A stretch of 64,000 nt of DNA from contig JAGVAP010000061.1 in assembly GCA_020060215.1 (NCBI GenBank), positions 23,143 to 87,142 on the forward strand, written 5' to 3'. The stretch is from Deltaproteobacteria bacterium (GTDB lineage Bacteria; Desulfobacterota; DSM-4660; Desulfatiglandales; HGW-15). Below the pieces are notes generated by a model, which had not been told where the DNA came from, searched no databases, and saw nothing but the letters and a program-made list of their open reading frames with translations. The translations under genes were made by a program, and so were the position numbers. Of this stretch, positions 23,555 through 30,816 are shown piece by piece; position 1 is the first letter of the stretch, and every line of letters starts with the position of its first letter.

Positions 23555-23687
23555 AACCGGCCAGCGCCGCGGCGGGCGGCTGGGCTGAACAGGATCGCTC
23601 GAGGATCCGGGCATTGATGTTTTTGCGTTGTCTCCGACAGGGACGATCCCGTATGATCGTTCAAACCGGCAAAAAAGGAGTGGAACC

Positions 23688-24809
23688 GTGGCACTGAAAG
23701 AGCGGATCAGGGAAAAGGCATTGGAACTGGGGTTCGAAGACGCGGGTTTCACCGGCGTGGAGCCGCTGGACCTGTACGTCCGGGAGATCGAGTCCAGGCC
23801 GGAGAAGATGTACGCGTGGGTGCAGACCGAACGCTTCAACGTCCGTCGAGGTGCCGAGTTCGGCCGAAAACATCCCTGGGCCGGATCACTGCTGGTCCTG
23901 ATCCGAAACTACCACCGGCGGGCCTTCCCGCCGCAGTTGATCGGGACCATCGGCCGCTGCTACCAGGTGGATGAGCGCAAGGAACAGGGGACCGAGCACA
24001 GGCGCTTGACCGATTTTTTCGCTTTTCTAAAGAGCGAGGGCATCCGTTTCTGGTTCGAAGGGGAACTGCCCGCCCGCATGTCTGCGGCCCGCGCCGGTCT
24101 TGTGACCTACGGTAAGAACTGCTTCGTCTATGCGCGGAACAGCATGCTGGGCTCCTCGTGGCTTGAGAGCATCCCGCTGATCCTGGACGCGGAGATCGAG
24201 CCGGATCGGCCGTCCATCGAGCTGGGCTGCCCCGAGTGGTGCCAAAACGCCTGCATCGCCGCCTGCCCTACCCATGCCCTGTATGGGCCGCTCAAGATGA
24301 ACCCCCTCCTCTGCATCGCCTTCAACACCTACCATGCAGAAGGCATGACCCCGGTGAAGCTGCGGGAGCCCATGGGGACCTGGGTGTACGGATGCGACCG
24401 CTGCCAGCAGGTCTGCCCGCGCAACCAGCCGTGGATGCAGCAGTCCCTCCCGGAGAACCCTTCCCTCATGGCACGGGCGCCCGACTTTGCCCTGGCCAGG
24501 CTCCTTACGATGGACGAAGATCATTACCTAGGCAAGGTCTGGCCCCTGGCGTTCTATATCTCCCGAAAGGAGATCTGGAGATGGCAGATGAACGCGGCGC
24601 GGGCCCTGGGAAACCTCGGCGACCGCAACCATGTCCCGGTCCTCCTCGAGTCCCTGGCCCACAGCCCTTACGAAGAAGTGCGGGCCATGGCTGCCTGGGC
24701 GCTGGGTCGGCTGGGCGGCGCGCCGGCGCGGAAAGGGCTTGAGGCCGGAAGGGAGCGGGAGTCAGGCCTGGTCAAGGAGGAGATCGAATCGGCCTTGTCC
24801 CGTCTCTGA
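23688..24809 (+). CDS. QueG-like 4Fe-4S protein with HEAT repeats
   Basis: 373 residues related to epoxyqueuosine reductase (QueG), a cobalamin/Fe-S enzyme of tRNA queuosine modification. An N-terminal QueG-like domain (1-190), two Cys clusters and C-terminal HEAT-like repeats (NAARALGNLGDRNHVPVLLE, EVRAMAAWALGRLGG) follow the QueG plan. The first cluster reads CPEWCQNACIAACP, spacing 3-3-3, whereas QueG has 2-2-3; the second is CDRCQQVCP. I therefore call it QueG-like, not QueG. GTG 23688 is set by AAGGAG upstream. It could act in a different reductive reaction. Confidence 0.75.
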   Translation: MALKERIREKALELGFEDAGFTGVEPLDLYVREIESRPEKMYAWVQTERFNVRRGAEFGRKHPWAGSLLVLIRNYHRRAFPPQLIGTIGRCYQVDERKEQGTEHRRLTDFFAFLKSEGIRFWFEGELPARMSAARAGLVTYGKNCFVYARNSMLGSSWLESIPLILDAEIEPDRPSIELGCPEWCQNACIAACPTHALYGPLKMNPLLCIAFNTYHAEGMTPVKLREPMGTWVYGCDRCQQVCPRNQPWMQQSLPENPSLMARAPDFALARLLTMDEDHYLGKVWPLAFYISRKEIWRWQMNAARALGNLGDRNHVPVLLESLAHSPYEEVRAMAAWALGRLGGAPARKGLEAGRERESGLVKEEIESALSRL

Positions 24810-25176
24810 GCCGGGCGGGCCTGTCTCTTGCGCTTTCAACCTTGTGGAGCAAGCTCTGGAGATGAATGCACAAGCCGAGCAGATGAAAGGCATCGGTGAC
24901 GATTGGCACTCTTGTAGGCGGAAGCTGCGCCCCTTCTTTGGGATGCCCTCCTGGGCGAGCAGGAGGGATGGCTGGGTCCACCAAGGAAGGAGCCCCCAGG
25001 AAGCAAGAACCGCGGGTTATCAGCTTTTCGCGTGCGGTTTGCTTTCACTCTTCATATCCAGACTCCGCCTTTACTGTCATATGCAGACGATATCTGCGAC
25101 GGAATTAGCTCCTAATCTCCCGGGGTAGGGTGGCAACCTTATGGCAAGGTATCTCAGATTAAGGAGTGTTAAGGAA
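24810..25176. other. Gene-free gap at the left edge of an AT-rich island
   Basis: No ORF with coding character, tRNA or terminator stands out. A GCCCTCCTGGGCG-AGCAGGAGGG inverted repeat lies near 24940-24970. Base composition shifts from GC-rich to AT-rich across this gap, marking the likely left boundary of acquired DNA. Confidence 0.5.
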
Positions 25177-28100
25177 CTAGTTCACGCGCAAGTTTTGAAT
25201 GTAATCTGATAAGAAATCTATCCGAAGGAATACAGCCCCAAAATCTTTGGGGGGGAATCTAGTCCACCAGTAAGTCAAACGGCTCACGTAAATTGTTTCT
25301 ACTCTAGGGTGCGCCTTTGATTCCATTGGCCATCCCAGAGCATTTGCGATCTCAAAGAGGTGCATCTGCAAATAGTCTCGCCTTTTGTTAATCTGCTCAA
25401 AGTGACCGTTGTCCATCCCGGGCTTTCCAAAAATCGTCTCCCTGAGTCTCTTCGCATCTTTTAGACAATGTACAGGAAGCAGATCCTTGCACTCAATGTT
25501 AAGAACTACCTTCCTATCGGGGCAGAATGCTAAGACGTCATAATCTCCAAGCTCTTTTGGATGCGCGTTTTTCGGTTTGAGTTTGTGAAGTCTAAGGTTC
25601 TTCCTTGCATGAGGAGTGTATCTCAAGACTATCTCCAAAGCCTTGTCAGCCAAGGAATCCTCTATGAGCTTCTTTTCACTTCTCAACACTCCTTCTATGG
25701 ATTTAGATTCAAGGTCCGTAGGCAGCATTCCTCTAGTAACAGCCCCGGACCATATAATCCCTGCTCTCCTTGTGGAATAAGGACCCCAATGATATCTCCT
25801 CCCTATTCGTATCAGAGGTCTTATGTTGTACCTAGAGAATCTCTTCCTGTATTCCCATACCGGCAAGTCGAAACAAGGTGTATCTTGGCCTAAAACGCGC
25901 AAAACCTCATCCCTCTTCAGAGTCAGAAAATTAATTACCGATTCGACCACTTTATGGGTAATGCCCGGGACCTTGTCTATACAACTTTTCCCTATTTGGT
26001 TACTTGTTGCAGAATAGCTCGGGCTTTCTGTGATTCCGTTTAGCGATGACGGCCAAAAAGTAAGAATCTGAAGAACACTTATCATCTCTGTAAAGCTGAA
26101 CCCCAGATCCTTCTTAGCGGCATAGTCTAATTCCAACAGAAAATCATCCGCTGGTCTAGGCGACTTTACTCTGTCCTCCCGCCGACCACTTGTCCCTAGT
26201 TCAATACTTGCCATCTCATGAGAGAACGCTTTTTCATCCTCTTCTATTCCTCGGTCATACACAACTTCAACCAGGTAATCTCGATTCAACTTCATGCCAA
26301 CAGAGAATAACTCGTAATGCAAGTTATCACTTGCGCTATAAAAAACATGCAACCAGTCAATCAAGGCAATCAGGTACTGGAATTGGTCTTTCCCGAGTAC
26401 CTCTTTCCCTCTTGGTTGAAGCTGAACAAATTTCTCGATTAAGTATCTATAGTTTTTGTGTTTTCTAAGGAATTCATTGTGTTCTCCTGCATACCTAATC
26501 TCGGGCTCATAATCTACTTCATGAGTTATCGCGTTCTGAAGGGTATAACAACTTCGTTCATACTCGTCATTAAGAGCGTCAATCCGGGCCAGCAAAAATG
26601 GAACATCATTTCCAAAGTCGTGACGGCCAACCTCATGATCTATTTCAGAAACTATCCCATCTCTTAGGACATCCAGAATTCCCTTTGCGTCTTCAAGTTC
26701 ATAGGCAGTCTCCTCTTTTAGGCCGAGTTCTCTTGCAATTTCAGCAACCCGTTTCTTAGCCTGTTTGAAATGTTTTGGCTCAGGCACAAAAGGACTTATC
26801 AGTTCCGGAAATGCGGCAAATTTATCCGTGATGAAAAGCTTAAACCTAGGCTTACCAGCCCTTGTCTTTTCCAACTTCTCTCTGATTGAACCAAGTTGTG
26901 AATCAGGAGCTACTTCGTTCAACTGTTCTATGACTTCCAACAGTATATCAACGTCGAAGGAGCGATCATCAGCCTCTAAGAGTGCTTTTGAGACTCTTTC
27001 ATCGTCATAAACAATACGTACGGCATGTTCACCAAGACCTGGAAAGCCAATGTCGCTGCGCCAAAGAGTTGTGATTTTGCACAAGTGAGAGAGATGTTCA
27101 AACCTGTCATTATTCGCCACGATAGAAAGAGGAAACACATTCACATGAAGTCTATCATAGCGTTTGAAGAAAAGGTGCTTCTCGATGATTGAAATTCTCT
27201 GAGACATTGAGTCTTCTAAGCATTCCATCAGGAGGTTTGATATATTTCCTCGGGGATAATCCATTTCATGAAATGGTGCGGTTATGGTCACACAAGTGGA
27301 GCCAATCTTGCAGAAGAGGACGGCTCCGAGATAACCCCTCGCGATTAATCTTGTTCGTGTCTCCGTCTCTTTTTCAATCCTCCAAGCTCGTGGGTGATCA
27401 AACGATCCAGCCTCGGGGAACAACTTCCAAAAACTAGATAGAGTTTTGAACCTCCTACTCGTTCCCCAGTGTGGATCAAGCGAGATAAACGTAGGCTGAA
27501 TAGCTCCGCTAATGAGGACTCCCTCAGAATCCTTGAATGAAGCGAACATGTCCAACATGCTTAAAAACGAATGAGTATGGCCTGACAATCCATCAAAGTA
27601 TTCGAGAAAATCTGCAAAGTCATCATATTGATCCATCTCATCTATGATGCCCAAGAATGCATCGAGGAACATGAGTCGACCAGGCGTGGATTTGGGCATT
27701 CGAATAGGTCCTAATTCGGTTGAAACTTGAGGAACCACAATAATCAGTTCAGGCTTAAGCATGGCTTTCCCAGACTCAGAGCGAAACTGCACATTTTGCC
27801 TATCAATATGCATAGCGAGTGTAATAGGTTGGGATGAAGCCAATAAGATGGCCTTCTTCAGGTCCTGTGAATTCCTTTTGATTTCTTGCTCAGTTGCCTT
27901 AGAAGACGCCGAAGGTTGCGTCATAAACAGCATTACCAGCCTGTCTCTCGACACAAATGCCACAGGGAACAACGTGTGGTGTGGAACTCCTTTTTTATCT
28001 AGTGCGCTTACCAAACGCAGGGCATTGCCTCTCCTCTGGCGCTTTTGAATATACTGAAATAGCTCGGCGCCTAATCTAATGGAATATCTAACTCGATCAG

Positions 28101-29070
28101 GCTCAACGATAGAGTTATACCTCTGGTACATACTGCTCCATTTATCAAATAAAACGGCAGAATACCTCCTTGGAAGGATGGGATAATACCTGCAGCCGTC
28201 CTTGACAAAAAATGCTCGAAGTAGCGCGCCAGTGAATATCATTTCGCTGAATTTCTCATAATTCAGCGAATCTTTGGGATATTTTCCAAGCTCTACGCTG
28301 AACTCTATCAAGAATGGTTCAGGAATCATTGCGTGAGGATTGAAGCCTGTGTAGAATAGTCGCACATTTCGCCAAAAGCCAGCTGGAGGTAGTTCGATGT
28401 TCCCTGGCGAAATTTGTAAACTTTCGCTGTTGGGTTGGCAGTTTATCCGAGTGATTATCTCCTCCTGCAATCTCAAACAGTATTGGAGTTCAGTCATCGG
28501 ACTTCTGTTTGAATGTCGCATATATTCATTATCATATGGCCCATAGATCATTTGGAAGAGCGCCAGGTATTCATTTGTATTGGATAGTTCGCTGCCATAG
28601 AACATCTTATAGTTCTTTTCCTCGTGGTGGAACTTCACTTCACCCCAGTCGGGCTCTGGAACAAAGTCTTCCATTGAGGGAAAGGATGGAACTAGTCGAT
28701 AAGCCTTATTGAAGAAGGACTTAAAATCACTATAGGTAGTTATAGAGTCCTGTTCGGAAAACTCATCGGCTCTAATGGTTGCAAAAATTGCAGTGAGGAG
28801 TAGGTGCTTAACGGGGCTGGCAATGTTTGGAAGCCAGATGCTTGAAACGAAAAGTGAGACTGCAACATCATTGGCGCTATATTCACGAAAAAGCGCGTAA
28901 ATCGGCTTGATAGACGACCGATACGACTTCCTCATTTCATTTTGCTTCTGTATGAGGAAATTCTCAAAGGTATTATCCATGTCCTTCATCTTGGCGATGG
29001 CGAGAGAGCCGTGTACATTAAACTGATTTTGTAAGAGTGCGATCTCCTCCTCGAAGGTTCTGTCACCCAC
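25177..29070 (-). CDS. Large unknown protein with C-terminal PD-(D/E)XK-like nuclease motif
   Basis: I do not recognise the family. 1297 residues, no signal peptide, no convincing membrane segment, no Walker A motif. The last ~130 residues look like a restriction-endonuclease fold: GDYDVLAF (Asp near 1176-1178), strand VVLNIECKD (Glu 1193, Lys 1195), then a helix EQINKRRDYLQ whose Gln fits motif IV. The ~1000 residues before it are mixed alpha/beta, helix-rich and without repeats. Codon and base use are clearly AT-richer than all neighbours, which indicates recent transfer. GTG 29070 is the most upstream start before an in-frame stop; ATG 28989 is possible. A lone giant nuclease gene in an island suggests a defence role; this is inference. 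Confidence 0.8.
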   Translation of the reverse strand: MGDRTFEEEIALLQNQFNVHGSLAIAKMKDMDNTFENFLIQKQNEMRKSYRSSIKPIYALFREYSANDVAVSLFVSSIWLPNIASPVKHLLLTAIFATIRADEFSEQDSITTYSDFKSFFNKAYRLVPSFPSMEDFVPEPDWGEVKFHHEEKNYKMFYGSELSNTNEYLALFQMIYGPYDNEYMRHSNRSPMTELQYCLRLQEEIITRINCQPNSESLQISPGNIELPPAGFWRNVRLFYTGFNPHAMIPEPFLIEFSVELGKYPKDSLNYEKFSEMIFTGALLRAFFVKDGCRYYPILPRRYSAVLFDKWSSMYQRYNSIVEPDRVRYSIRLGAELFQYIQKRQRRGNALRLVSALDKKGVPHHTLFPVAFVSRDRLVMLFMTQPSASSKATEQEIKRNSQDLKKAILLASSQPITLAMHIDRQNVQFRSESGKAMLKPELIIVVPQVSTELGPIRMPKSTPGRLMFLDAFLGIIDEMDQYDDFADFLEYFDGLSGHTHSFLSMLDMFASFKDSEGVLISGAIQPTFISLDPHWGTSRRFKTLSSFWKLFPEAGSFDHPRAWRIEKETETRTRLIARGYLGAVLFCKIGSTCVTITAPFHEMDYPRGNISNLLMECLEDSMSQRISIIEKHLFFKRYDRLHVNVFPLSIVANNDRFEHLSHLCKITTLWRSDIGFPGLGEHAVRIVYDDERVSKALLEADDRSFDVDILLEVIEQLNEVAPDSQLGSIREKLEKTRAGKPRFKLFITDKFAAFPELISPFVPEPKHFKQAKKRVAEIARELGLKEETAYELEDAKGILDVLRDGIVSEIDHEVGRHDFGNDVPFLLARIDALNDEYERSCYTLQNAITHEVDYEPEIRYAGEHNEFLRKHKNYRYLIEKFVQLQPRGKEVLGKDQFQYLIALIDWLHVFYSASDNLHYELFSVGMKLNRDYLVEVVYDRGIEEDEKAFSHEMASIELGTSGRREDRVKSPRPADDFLLELDYAAKKDLGFSFTEMISVLQILTFWPSSLNGITESPSYSATSNQIGKSCIDKVPGITHKVVESVINFLTLKRDEVLRVLGQDTPCFDLPVWEYRKRFSRYNIRPLIRIGRRYHWGPYSTRRAGIIWSGAVTRGMLPTDLESKSIEGVLRSEKKLIEDSLADKALEIVLRYTPHARKNLRLHKLKPKNAHPKELGDYDVLAFCPDRKVVLNIECKDLLPVHCLKDAKRLRETIFGKPGMDNGHFEQINKRRDYLQMHLFEIANALGWPMESKAHPRVETIYVSRLTYWWTRFPPKDFGAVFLRIDFLSDYIQNLRVN

Positions 29071-29222
29071 CGGACCACGTCCTTCTTCGAATGAGTCGTC
29101 CCGGAGCAGATCCTAAATAGAGAAGTCCCCCTCCTCTCTGAGGATTGCCACCATGCAGCGAACCAGTTAATTCTGTAAATGGTTCCTTTCATGATTTGCA
29201 GTCTCGTGGTTCAGTAAAGGAC

Positions 29223-29372
29223 CTAGGGCAGGACCCTAGCAGCCGCTAAGAGAATAAAATTCGCAATAGCGGTTTCTTCGGTGAAGAAGCTGCCAACAAA
29301 GCAGCTCCATCCGGCCAAAACTAGGGCGACAGGTGCAAACGTTCTCGCCTTGTCGAACACGTCTTTGACCAT
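29223..29372 (-). CDS. 49-residue membrane protein upstream of the nuclease-like gene
   Basis: A short ORF whose ATG (29372) is preceded by GGAAAGGAG at good spacing. The product has one clear membrane segment (FAPVALVLAGWSCFVGSFF) and a second weaker hydrophobic stretch (TAIANFILLAAARVLP). It lies about 150 bp upstream of the 1297-residue gene on the same strand and shares the AT-rich island, so the two may be co-transcribed. No family recognised; a membrane-anchored partner or a toxin-like peptide are possible roles but unproven. Confidence 0.5.
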   Translation of the reverse strand: MVKDVFDKARTFAPVALVLAGWSCFVGSFFTEETAIANFILLAAARVLP

Positions 29373-30229
29373 AGCAGTCACTCCTTTCCACCAGGAAGGT
29401 TTCAAGTTCCGGCTGCTAAGGCTGCCCTGCTCCGCACTCTGGCGTCGTGCCCTAGATCCTCCATCTTACTCTGGCACTGATCAATCCACGCGCACAACGT
29501 TTGAATTCATGATTCAGGATATCTTTTACTGCCGCAAGAAATCCAGAAAGCCACGTGCGCAAAGGCCCAGTTCTCATCCGAGAAACTGAGCCTTTGCTAT
29601 CCTCTCAATCCCCTTCATGTCAGAACCTCTGTTTTGAGGTTTCTCTGAAACTTTGTTTTGTCAAAAGCTGGAATAACCTAGACCTGTCATAGGGTTATGT
29701 CAAGGTTTAATGTCGAAAAAGGGATTCTGGGGATGATGGACTTTCTGTGACCGGATCTTGAGAGACTTGGGCAAGCTGTATCCTTCACTCCCTGATCACT
29801 GAGGTTATCCCTCTTATTCTTCATCTGGAGATCCTACTGGCCGAACATCCTTGGAGTGCATAGATCTGCTCTCTGTACGTAAAAAAGCAGAGGGAGTCGA
29901 AATGGCCCTGGGTATCTTGGATATCCTTCTTCTACCACAGAATATCCGCCCGTCCGGGAAATCTCGAGTATGTTTGAAATACCCACGCTTTTGGGAGGAG
30001 GATTCTTGTTCATTCGCAGAGTGTTCGAACAGGGGATCACATCAGCACGGTGCTTTCGAAGCAGTTCGTCCGTTCGGCCATCTGTGCAAGGCATGGCGGC
30101 CGAGGACGGCAGAATCGCCCCGTTTCCGTCCCCGATCAAACCGAGCAGGGAATCAAAAGGTGTCTATTGTCTCACGGCAAAGGTGGAAGAGCGTGATCAG
30201 GAGGGCCTCGCCGGAACCGAGGTCTTCAC
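29373..30229. other. Long gene-poor stretch at the right end of the island
   Basis: Several ORFs of about 100 codons overlap on both strands, but none shows coding character or a family signature. A strong inverted repeat GCAAAGGC...GCCTTTGC lies at 29559-29597 with a matching inner stem (CAGTTCTC/GAGAAACTG); it lacks a U-tract, so terminator use is uncertain. GC content rises again after about 30000. It may hold decayed genes. Confidence 0.45.
29559..29597. repeat. Long perfect-arm hairpin
   Basis: Arms GCAAAGGC (29559-29566) and GCCTTTGC (29590-29597), extended inward by a nearly perfect second stem. Possible transcription terminator or RNA structure upstream of the small membrane protein gene. 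Confidence 0.55.
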
Positions 30230-30580
30230 TTATTCCGGCACGCGCCAACGGAGGCCCTGGAACCTTGCGTAGTCGCGGTCGAGTGTGATCCATTCACAGC
30301 CCGACTCCATGGCCAGGGCAGCGAACCATGCGTCAGGCACCATGTTGCCACGGGCGTCCGCCTCGGCGCAAAGTCGGGCGAAAGATCTCCCAATGCCGCT
30401 CGGCTTCACGAAGACCTTCGGATGAGTAGTGACGCGGATGACGCCGCTCAATACCTGCGGAGCCATGCCGTAGCGGCTATCTCCATTAACCACACCATCG
30501 AGCCAGGAACGGCATCTTTCATGCTCGGATGAATCCGACCTAAAGGCATGCACGAGGATGTTGCCGTCGGGGAGGATCAC
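30230..30580 (-). CDS. vapC: PIN-domain ribonuclease toxin VapC
   Basis: Predicted Mg-dependent RNase toxin of a type II module. 116 residues with the first acidic residue in PDGNILVHAF, the middle acidic helix in MVPDAWFAALAME and the last cluster in WITLDRDYARF, the PIN-domain set. GTG start at 30580 overlaps the antitoxin stop as GTGA, so translation is coupled. RNA target unknown. Confidence 0.88.
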   Translation of the reverse strand: MILPDGNILVHAFRSDSSEHERCRSWLDGVVNGDSRYGMAPQVLSGVIRVTTHPKVFVKPSGIGRSFARLCAEADARGNMVPDAWFAALAMESGCEWITLDRDYARFQGLRWRVPE

Positions 30581-30816
30581 GACCCTTTCATGGCCTCCTC
30601 CAAATCACTGGACCGGTTCAGGTCGACCCCTGGAAGGACGCCACCCGTGGCCTTGGACACAGGCAGATCAACGCGCCCCCGTCGACCCGGTTTCGGCTTG
30701 GCCACAACGAGCTTCAGGGCGTCTTCGATCAGCGAGGTCAAGGTACGCCCTTCCTCAGCCGCTCGTTTTTTCGCGCGCCGGAGGAGCTCATCCTCTATCC
30801 TGATAGTAGTTCTCAT
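30577..30816 (-). CDS. vapB: Ribbon-helix-helix antitoxin VapB
   Basis: 79 residues. The N-terminus MRTTIRIEDELLRRAKKRAAEEGRTLTS is a ribbon-helix-helix DNA-binding domain; the C-terminal tail (about 45-79) would wrap and inhibit VapC. The AT-rich stretch just upstream (30817-30850, CATAAATATG) is the likely autoregulated promoter, as is usual for such modules. Confidence 0.86.
   Translation of the reverse strand: MRTTIRIEDELLRRAKKRAAEEGRTLTSLIEDALKLVVAKPKPGRRGRVDLPVSKATGGVLPGVDLNRSSDLEEAMKGS

Follow-up and report, generated by a model that had tools for sequence, protein, structure and literature searches.

A putative nuclease gene of foreign composition related to the anti-phage protein Upx, and probably a single-gene defence, in a deltaproteobacterial contig

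A large putative nuclease gene of foreign composition

On the minus strand of a 64,000-nucleotide stretch of contig JAGVAP010000061.1 from a Deltaproteobacteria bacterium, referred to here as the window, positions 25177 to 29070 are occupied by a single intact open reading frame (ORF) of 1297 codons, which ORF calling and a family search together mark as a gene for a large putative nuclease related to Upx, a known single-protein anti-phage family that reportedly came from a 2020 screen. The ORF is the one described in an earlier, sequence-only reading, which had proposed that it might represent a new one- or two-gene antiphage system. The encoded protein is up to 1297 residues long, with Met28 or Met31 as alternatives to the GTG start, which is uncertain because the N-termini of relatives are ragged and the match to the family profile begins at residue 30.

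The gene had been singled out as far richer in AT than its neighbours, and the base composition of the window bears this out. The four 1-kb windows spanning positions 25001-29000 have G+C fractions of 0.427-0.453, compared with 0.555-0.675 in the other 60, the sole exception being the adjoining window at 29001-30000 (0.489). The same difference is seen by codon position, with values of 0.50/0.36/0.46 for the nuclease gene and 0.62/0.47/0.80 for a queG-like neighbour; a chemoreceptor gene reaches 0.76 at third positions, against 0.46 in the nuclease gene. Thus, the nuclease gene is foreign in composition to the DNA around it.

A C-terminal half shared with Upx

A Pfam scan found no family for the window protein, in keeping with the claim that it belongs to no recognised family, a claim that gives way only to weak Upx matches in PADLOC (E 1.2e-4) and NCBIfam (E 6e-5). 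Single-sequence scans yielded a short, weak Upx match at residues 1154-1197 and an E-value of 0.03 to a chain in the Protein Data Bank (PDB), 9wuf_A; the PADLOC Upx profile is matched at E 0.1 or better by 26 of 37 diverse members of the family of relatives, the best at 5.1e-12. When the family is used as a profile, 9wuf_A is matched at E 2.4e-11 by the whole profile and at 4.3e-16 by the profile of its C-terminal half, and apart from 9wuf_A no solved chain falls under E 0.2. Comparison of the family profile with a 35-sequence Upx profile by hhalign gave E 6.4e-17 and a probability of 98.8%, with 906 columns aligned after realignment and 654 in a plain local alignment, where profile positions 547-1247 pair with 580-1269. 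A reversed Upx profile reached a probability of 1.3%, and none of three column shuffles exceeded 0.1%.

The chain 9wuf_A, which its depositors named 'Restriction endonuclease', is tied to Upx by a series of identities. It matches the Upx protein P0135 from end to end (1-1272, 2896.6 bits), and two Salmonella plasmid copies share 100% identity with a 512-residue piece of the chain. One of these copies is also 100% identical to P0135 along 844 residues; it matches the NCBIfam model 'anti-phage protein Upx' at E 0 with 1482.9 bits, a score that falls short of the 1900-bit cut-off because the copy is a fragment. The family profile finds P0135 at E 1.3e-19. Upx is mentioned in PMC12629846, PMC10855318, PMC13367071 and PMC13249269. 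A precomputed Pfam entry, PF28173.1, marks every one of the 120 proteins listed by the search with Upx, together with family members P0033, P0121 and P0130, and the Pfam copy that was scanned returned no match for P0033, P0121, P0130 or P0135.

Crops of the window protein localize the relation. Residues 690-1060 and 1050-1297 match Upx at E 2.8e-9 and 1.3e-11, respectively, and residues 280-700, 1-300 and 1-420 do so at probabilities of 1.4%, 0.6% and 0.4%. The C-terminal half, residues 690-1297 (25180..27003, minus strand), is thus homologous to Upx and to 9wuf_A, with an upper limit that is not sharp because alignments start anywhere between about residue 560 and 770. For the N-terminal half, residues 1-689 (27004..29070, minus strand), profile comparisons turned up neither a link to Upx nor one to a solved structure, and a remote homology may lie below detection. 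This half is nonetheless conserved within the family, where the alignment reveals ED..PE.DWGE, DPHWG and further motifs, and it is presumed to be the sensing or regulatory part.

The window protein and Upx (NF042954, PADLOC PDLC02221, PDB 9wuf_A) have much in common: each is one large protein (about 1250-1297 residues in the family, 1240-1272 in Upx), their C-terminal halves are homologous and run in the same order, and both carry an ECK nuclease motif. They differ in the N-terminal part, which has no detectable relation, in an identity of 16% across the profile alignment, and in the residues that follow ECK, which read NYSEVASQLSEYQG in Upx where the window family has KD..R..IFG. In whole-protein scores against NF042954, the window protein obtains 20.4 bits and the member at locus L044 23 bits, and the clade thus falls far below the curated cut-off of 1900 bits, with an N-terminal part that seems to be its own. 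The best reading is that the window family is a sister clade to Upx, apparently unnamed, and that the effector half, but as far as detected not the other half, is common to both clades. A comparison of the clades could therefore show which half senses phage. A literature search that included 'Upx-like' and the Escherichia coli accessions found no paper on this clade.

Two plasmid proteins annotated as hypothetical extend the picture. The 892-residue protein of Lactococcus plasmid pFI430 (L079:4924-7602) is related to the family over the latter's C-terminal two thirds, matching profile positions 421-1206 at E 2.1e-46; it lacks the first ~420 profile positions and has no NCBIfam match at 0.01. 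On Sinorhizobium plasmid pHRB800 (L078:5401-7764), a 787-residue Upx relative (E 3.6e-144) spans profile positions 449-1226, its N-terminal third apparently missing.

A conserved catalytic motif

The sequence-only reading had placed a PD-(D/E)XK-like motif at the C-terminal end of the protein, and its core stands. The nuclease region, delimited by the Upx matches, the 1050-1297 crop and the alignment, comprises residues about 1100-1297 (25180..25773, minus strand), and within it lies the putative active site D1176-x-D1178 ... E1193-C-K1195 (25486..25545, minus strand). Conservation was counted over 180 aligned sequences of at least 1150 residues, the window protein included, some of them duplicated between the protein and locus lists; neither this set nor a 59-sequence set contains split or short copies. 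Although identities within the aligned family fall to 25%, Asp1178, Glu1193 and Lys1195, the D...ExK of a PD-(D/E)XK enzyme, are identical in 180 of 180 sequences, and position 1176 is Asp in 176 and Glu in the other four. Glu1137, a possible motif-I glutamate, is Glu in 148 and Asp in 15. The part of the earlier motif that does not stand is a downstream Gln which, if Gln1226 was meant, varies in the family (Q in 3, K in 35 and R in 17 of the 59 sequences); the residues kept downstream of ECK are instead Lys1204 (176/180), Asp1205 (179/180) and Arg1230 (179/180). The remark that no ATPase motif is present agrees with the one such motif tested, Walker A, which is absent from the window protein and matched in 2 of the 180 sequences at unrelated places.

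Distribution of the family

A protein search at E 1e-3 or better collected 124 proteins, the window protein included, and the closest other member is 59% identical to it. Among 120 listed family proteins, again including the window protein, 108 are 1150-1305 residues long. In a genome collection 99 relatives were found; 80 of them were retained and represent 75 distinct loci, with record titles naming Planctomycetota, Thermodesulfovibrionia, Chloroflexi, Elusimicrobia, Patescibacteria, Omnitrophota, Ignavibacteria, Pyrinomonadaceae, one Micrarchaeota archaeon and many Pseudomonadota, the last being a gloss on genus names in the titles. By these titles the family is widespread in many bacterial phyla, yet it is unnamed in the copies of Pfam, NCBIfam and PADLOC that were used, and defence surveys relying on them may therefore miss it.

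Where it was sampled within groups, the family is sparse. Members occur in 3 of 398 genomes of the phylum of L044's genome, L044's own included, and in 11 of 5,426 E. coli genomes (10 by one DNA query and 1 by a second), where the matches are annotated 'hypothetical protein' and one of the ten copies from the first query is disrupted by insertion sequences. The family is also often island-borne, with G+C below that of the distal flanks in 48 of 60 tested loci, and by at least 3 points in 33. A viral origin was set aside: none of 50,697 phage records matched the single family query used, P0119, and 29 pattern matches in viral contigs contained no relatives.

DNA repair systems and mobile elements commonly make use of PD-(D/E)XK domains, and integrase-type genes (labels read by eye) lie near several of the loci. 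Both facts would suit a nuclease that processes DNA in replication, transfer or repair, as part of a mobile element or of housekeeping, instead of serving in defence. This reading is improbable, given the sparse occurrence, the same blanks in phage records and viral contigs, the kinship to Upx and the presence of defence genes near some loci.

Gene neighbourhoods of relatives

Neighbouring genes were clustered from 1147 ORFs, those of the window at 15-40 kb included, which gave 18 clusters present in at least 3 loci; none of the window genes between 15 and 40 kb falls in any of them. Restriction, helicase-type and integrase-type labels were read by eye. The survey recovered defence genes and integrase-bearing islands at some relatives, as the proposal of a defence system had anticipated. 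The small membrane gene proposed as a partner is not among the recurrent partners, which are NACHT with ~490-residue genes, 1248-residue with Fic genes, GajA-type genes and type I restriction genes.

A NACHT protein and a ~490-residue protein occur at the same 7 of 75 loci; the NACHT domains, tested on the L017 copy, are accompanied by an LmuA-like N-terminal stretch. The family nuclease, the NACHT protein and the ~490-residue protein may form an undescribed multi-gene defence system. These loci are L031:9932-19600, L033, L034, L045, L050, L055 and L017, joined by E. coli L080:17842-28774; the NACHT protein has about 1470 residues, and its ~490-residue partner is without a Pfam family. A 1248-residue protein with no Pfam or PADLOC match and no significant PDB match is present at 5 of 75 loci, and a Fic protein (DUF4172 plus Fic, tested on the L039 copy) at 7, including all five of these. 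At L044:6080-9826, L028, L038, L070 and L072 the gene for the 1248-residue protein immediately precedes the family gene, and the Fic-type gene lies downstream on the other strand.

Type I restriction-type genes are found at three loci, 50 bp upstream of the family gene at L006, on both sides of it at L011 (13 bp before and 167 bp after), and at a distance of 3.6-8 kb at L057. Three loci likewise have OLD/GajA-type genes: at L046:6159-13750, GajA (by PADLOC) and a GajB-type helicase gene directly precede the family gene, and at L060 and L071 OLD-type and helicase-type pairs adjoin it. At all three of these loci the family gene is placed like a third Gabija gene. Integrase-type clusters occur at 5 and 3 loci, and at L013 an upstream gene with a weak MmeI match (E 6.1e-4) has a 40-bp overlap with the family gene. 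In E. coli, both regions read from the first query are ssrA/intA islands in which a NACHT gene and two more genes follow the family gene, and the one region from the second query has a 1248-residue-type gene just upstream and integrase genes nearby. The Gabija, type I restriction and NACHT/LmuA-like operons are neighbours of some family members and not kin of the family protein; their tight coupling to it at some loci bears on whether defence systems recruit a common extra nuclease.

Such coupling is the strength of a different reading, in which the family protein serves as an accessory nuclease effector and depends on a partner (a NACHT sensor, Gabija, restriction genes or the 1248-residue protein) and the window copy is the orphan of a lost operon, perhaps idle alone. 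On the same strand, the first start of the NACHT gene lies -7 to +13 bp from the family stop at 6 loci, the end of the 1248-residue gene lies between -43 and +13 bp relative to the mechanical start of the family gene at 5 loci, the helicase-type gene of L046 is spaced by -8 bp, and the E. coli clusters comprise two genes (L081) or three to four (L080, L082). This reading is nevertheless rather unlikely, since many other loci have no recurring neighbour among the 18 clusters, Upx is filed as one protein, and the window gene is unbroken and keeps every motif.

A probable single-gene defence nuclease

The explanation that best fits the locus is that the window gene was acquired horizontally and encodes an anti-phage nuclease, related to Upx, that works as a single-gene system, and this is probably correct. 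Its composition is foreign, its C-terminal half is homologous by profile to Upx and has an invariant D-x-D...E-x-K nuclease motif at its end, and some relatives stand in defence contexts. Much of the earlier proposal is thereby retained, with its novelty weakened because the C-terminal half belongs with Upx, and with its two-gene version unsupported.

Several points weigh against this explanation. Homology to Upx is detected for roughly the C-terminal half, and the transfer of a mechanism from Upx therefore covers half of the protein; the literature search found no paper on how Upx works. The PD-(D/E)XK fold is predicted from homology and motif, and to our knowledge no member of the window clade has been put through a phage assay. 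The sole defence-type neighbour seen in the window is a VapBC-like pair, and by eye the neighbours at many of the listed loci are ordinary-looking or unidentified. Proximity to defence genes was compared by PADLOC for 133 of 268 genes within 3 kb of family genes and 148 of 241 genes at 6 kb or more, a sample without genes shorter than 130 or longer than 1300 residues and without six clusters (NACHT, ~490-residue, 1248-residue, Fic, one integrase-type and one of 148 residues). At 1e-20, the near genes matched 105 families and the far genes 73. The first 25 of the 105 include type I and type IIG restriction, JetC, GajB, PtuB, Old and DrmMI, and the first 25 of the 73 include methyltransferase, specificity, AbiE and mad2, neither set being tied to single genes. 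The test fails to separate near from far, and adjacency to defence genes is therefore not proven special.

If the window protein does act in phage defence, it would most likely be a single-chain sensor-effector nuclease. The protein would stay inactive until a sign of infection reaches either the clade-private N-terminal part or the shared middle region, whereupon the C-terminal PD-(D/E)XK domain would cut DNA. Activation by binding is more likely than ATP-driven translocation, since no Walker A motif is present. The target could be phage DNA, as in restriction, or the cell's DNA cut indiscriminately, as in abortive infection, and the data suit both. The effector step is suggested by the conserved motif and homology, whereas the trigger, sensing by the N-terminal part and the choice of phage or host DNA are more speculative.

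More tentatively, the nuclease half might be a portable module with swappable sensors, one that would be joined to at least two N-terminal parts, serve as an extra effector in Gabija, type I restriction and NACHT operons, and also act alone, as in the window. The N-terminal parts in question are those of Upx and of the window clade, which are not detectably related; the lactococcal relative is without most of the N-terminal part.

The small upstream ORF and the flanking genes

On the same strand as the nuclease gene and 152 bp upstream of it, a 49-residue ORF (29223-29372) with an AAGGAG ribosome site had been put forward as a membrane protein and partner of the nuclease. The ORF and its ribosome site are present, and it is modestly hydrophobic, its weak hydrophobic stretch having a best 19-residue mean of 1.81. 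In a tblastn search over 82 loci it found no homologue (best other match E 0.64), and it was left out of the system for this reason; a membrane partner was likewise rejected as the small gene is not conserved beside the nuclease in relatives. Small hydrophobic ORFs do lie within 500 bp upstream in 12 of 66 loci, and by eye these look mutually unrelated. That the peptide anchors or regulates the nuclease in a two-gene system, for which the shared strand, the good ribosome site and the short distance speak, is by these results and by its weak hydrophobicity the least likely of the readings considered. The idea recalls SNIPE, a defence nuclease described in PMC13190303 as located at the membrane and cutting DNA at injection; the likeness is one of description, not sequence, and the small ORF of the window is not conserved beside the nuclease.

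To the right of the nuclease gene, about 1.1 kb upstream of it, a VapBC-like toxin-antitoxin pair (PIN plus VapB, 30230-30816) of host-like G+C is followed by chemoreceptor genes. Promoter and terminator scans at the island gave signals no higher than in shuffles, an Rfam scan gave no match, and a tRNA scan found none; direct repeats flanking the island are short.

To the left, at 23628-24809, lies a gene with Fer4_16 and HEAT domains, a make-up from which we take it to be queG-like. In a search for an empty site, four queG-centred stretches were compared, and the insertion site was left undefined because queG alone was substantially common to them, apart from a few weak matches. The host may belong in or close to the phylum of L021's genome (record title Desulfobacteraceae), where the gene was matched at 1e-50 in 51 of 395 genomes and has 71% identity to one genome; in two other phyla none of 57 and none of 295 genomes matched it at 1e-60.

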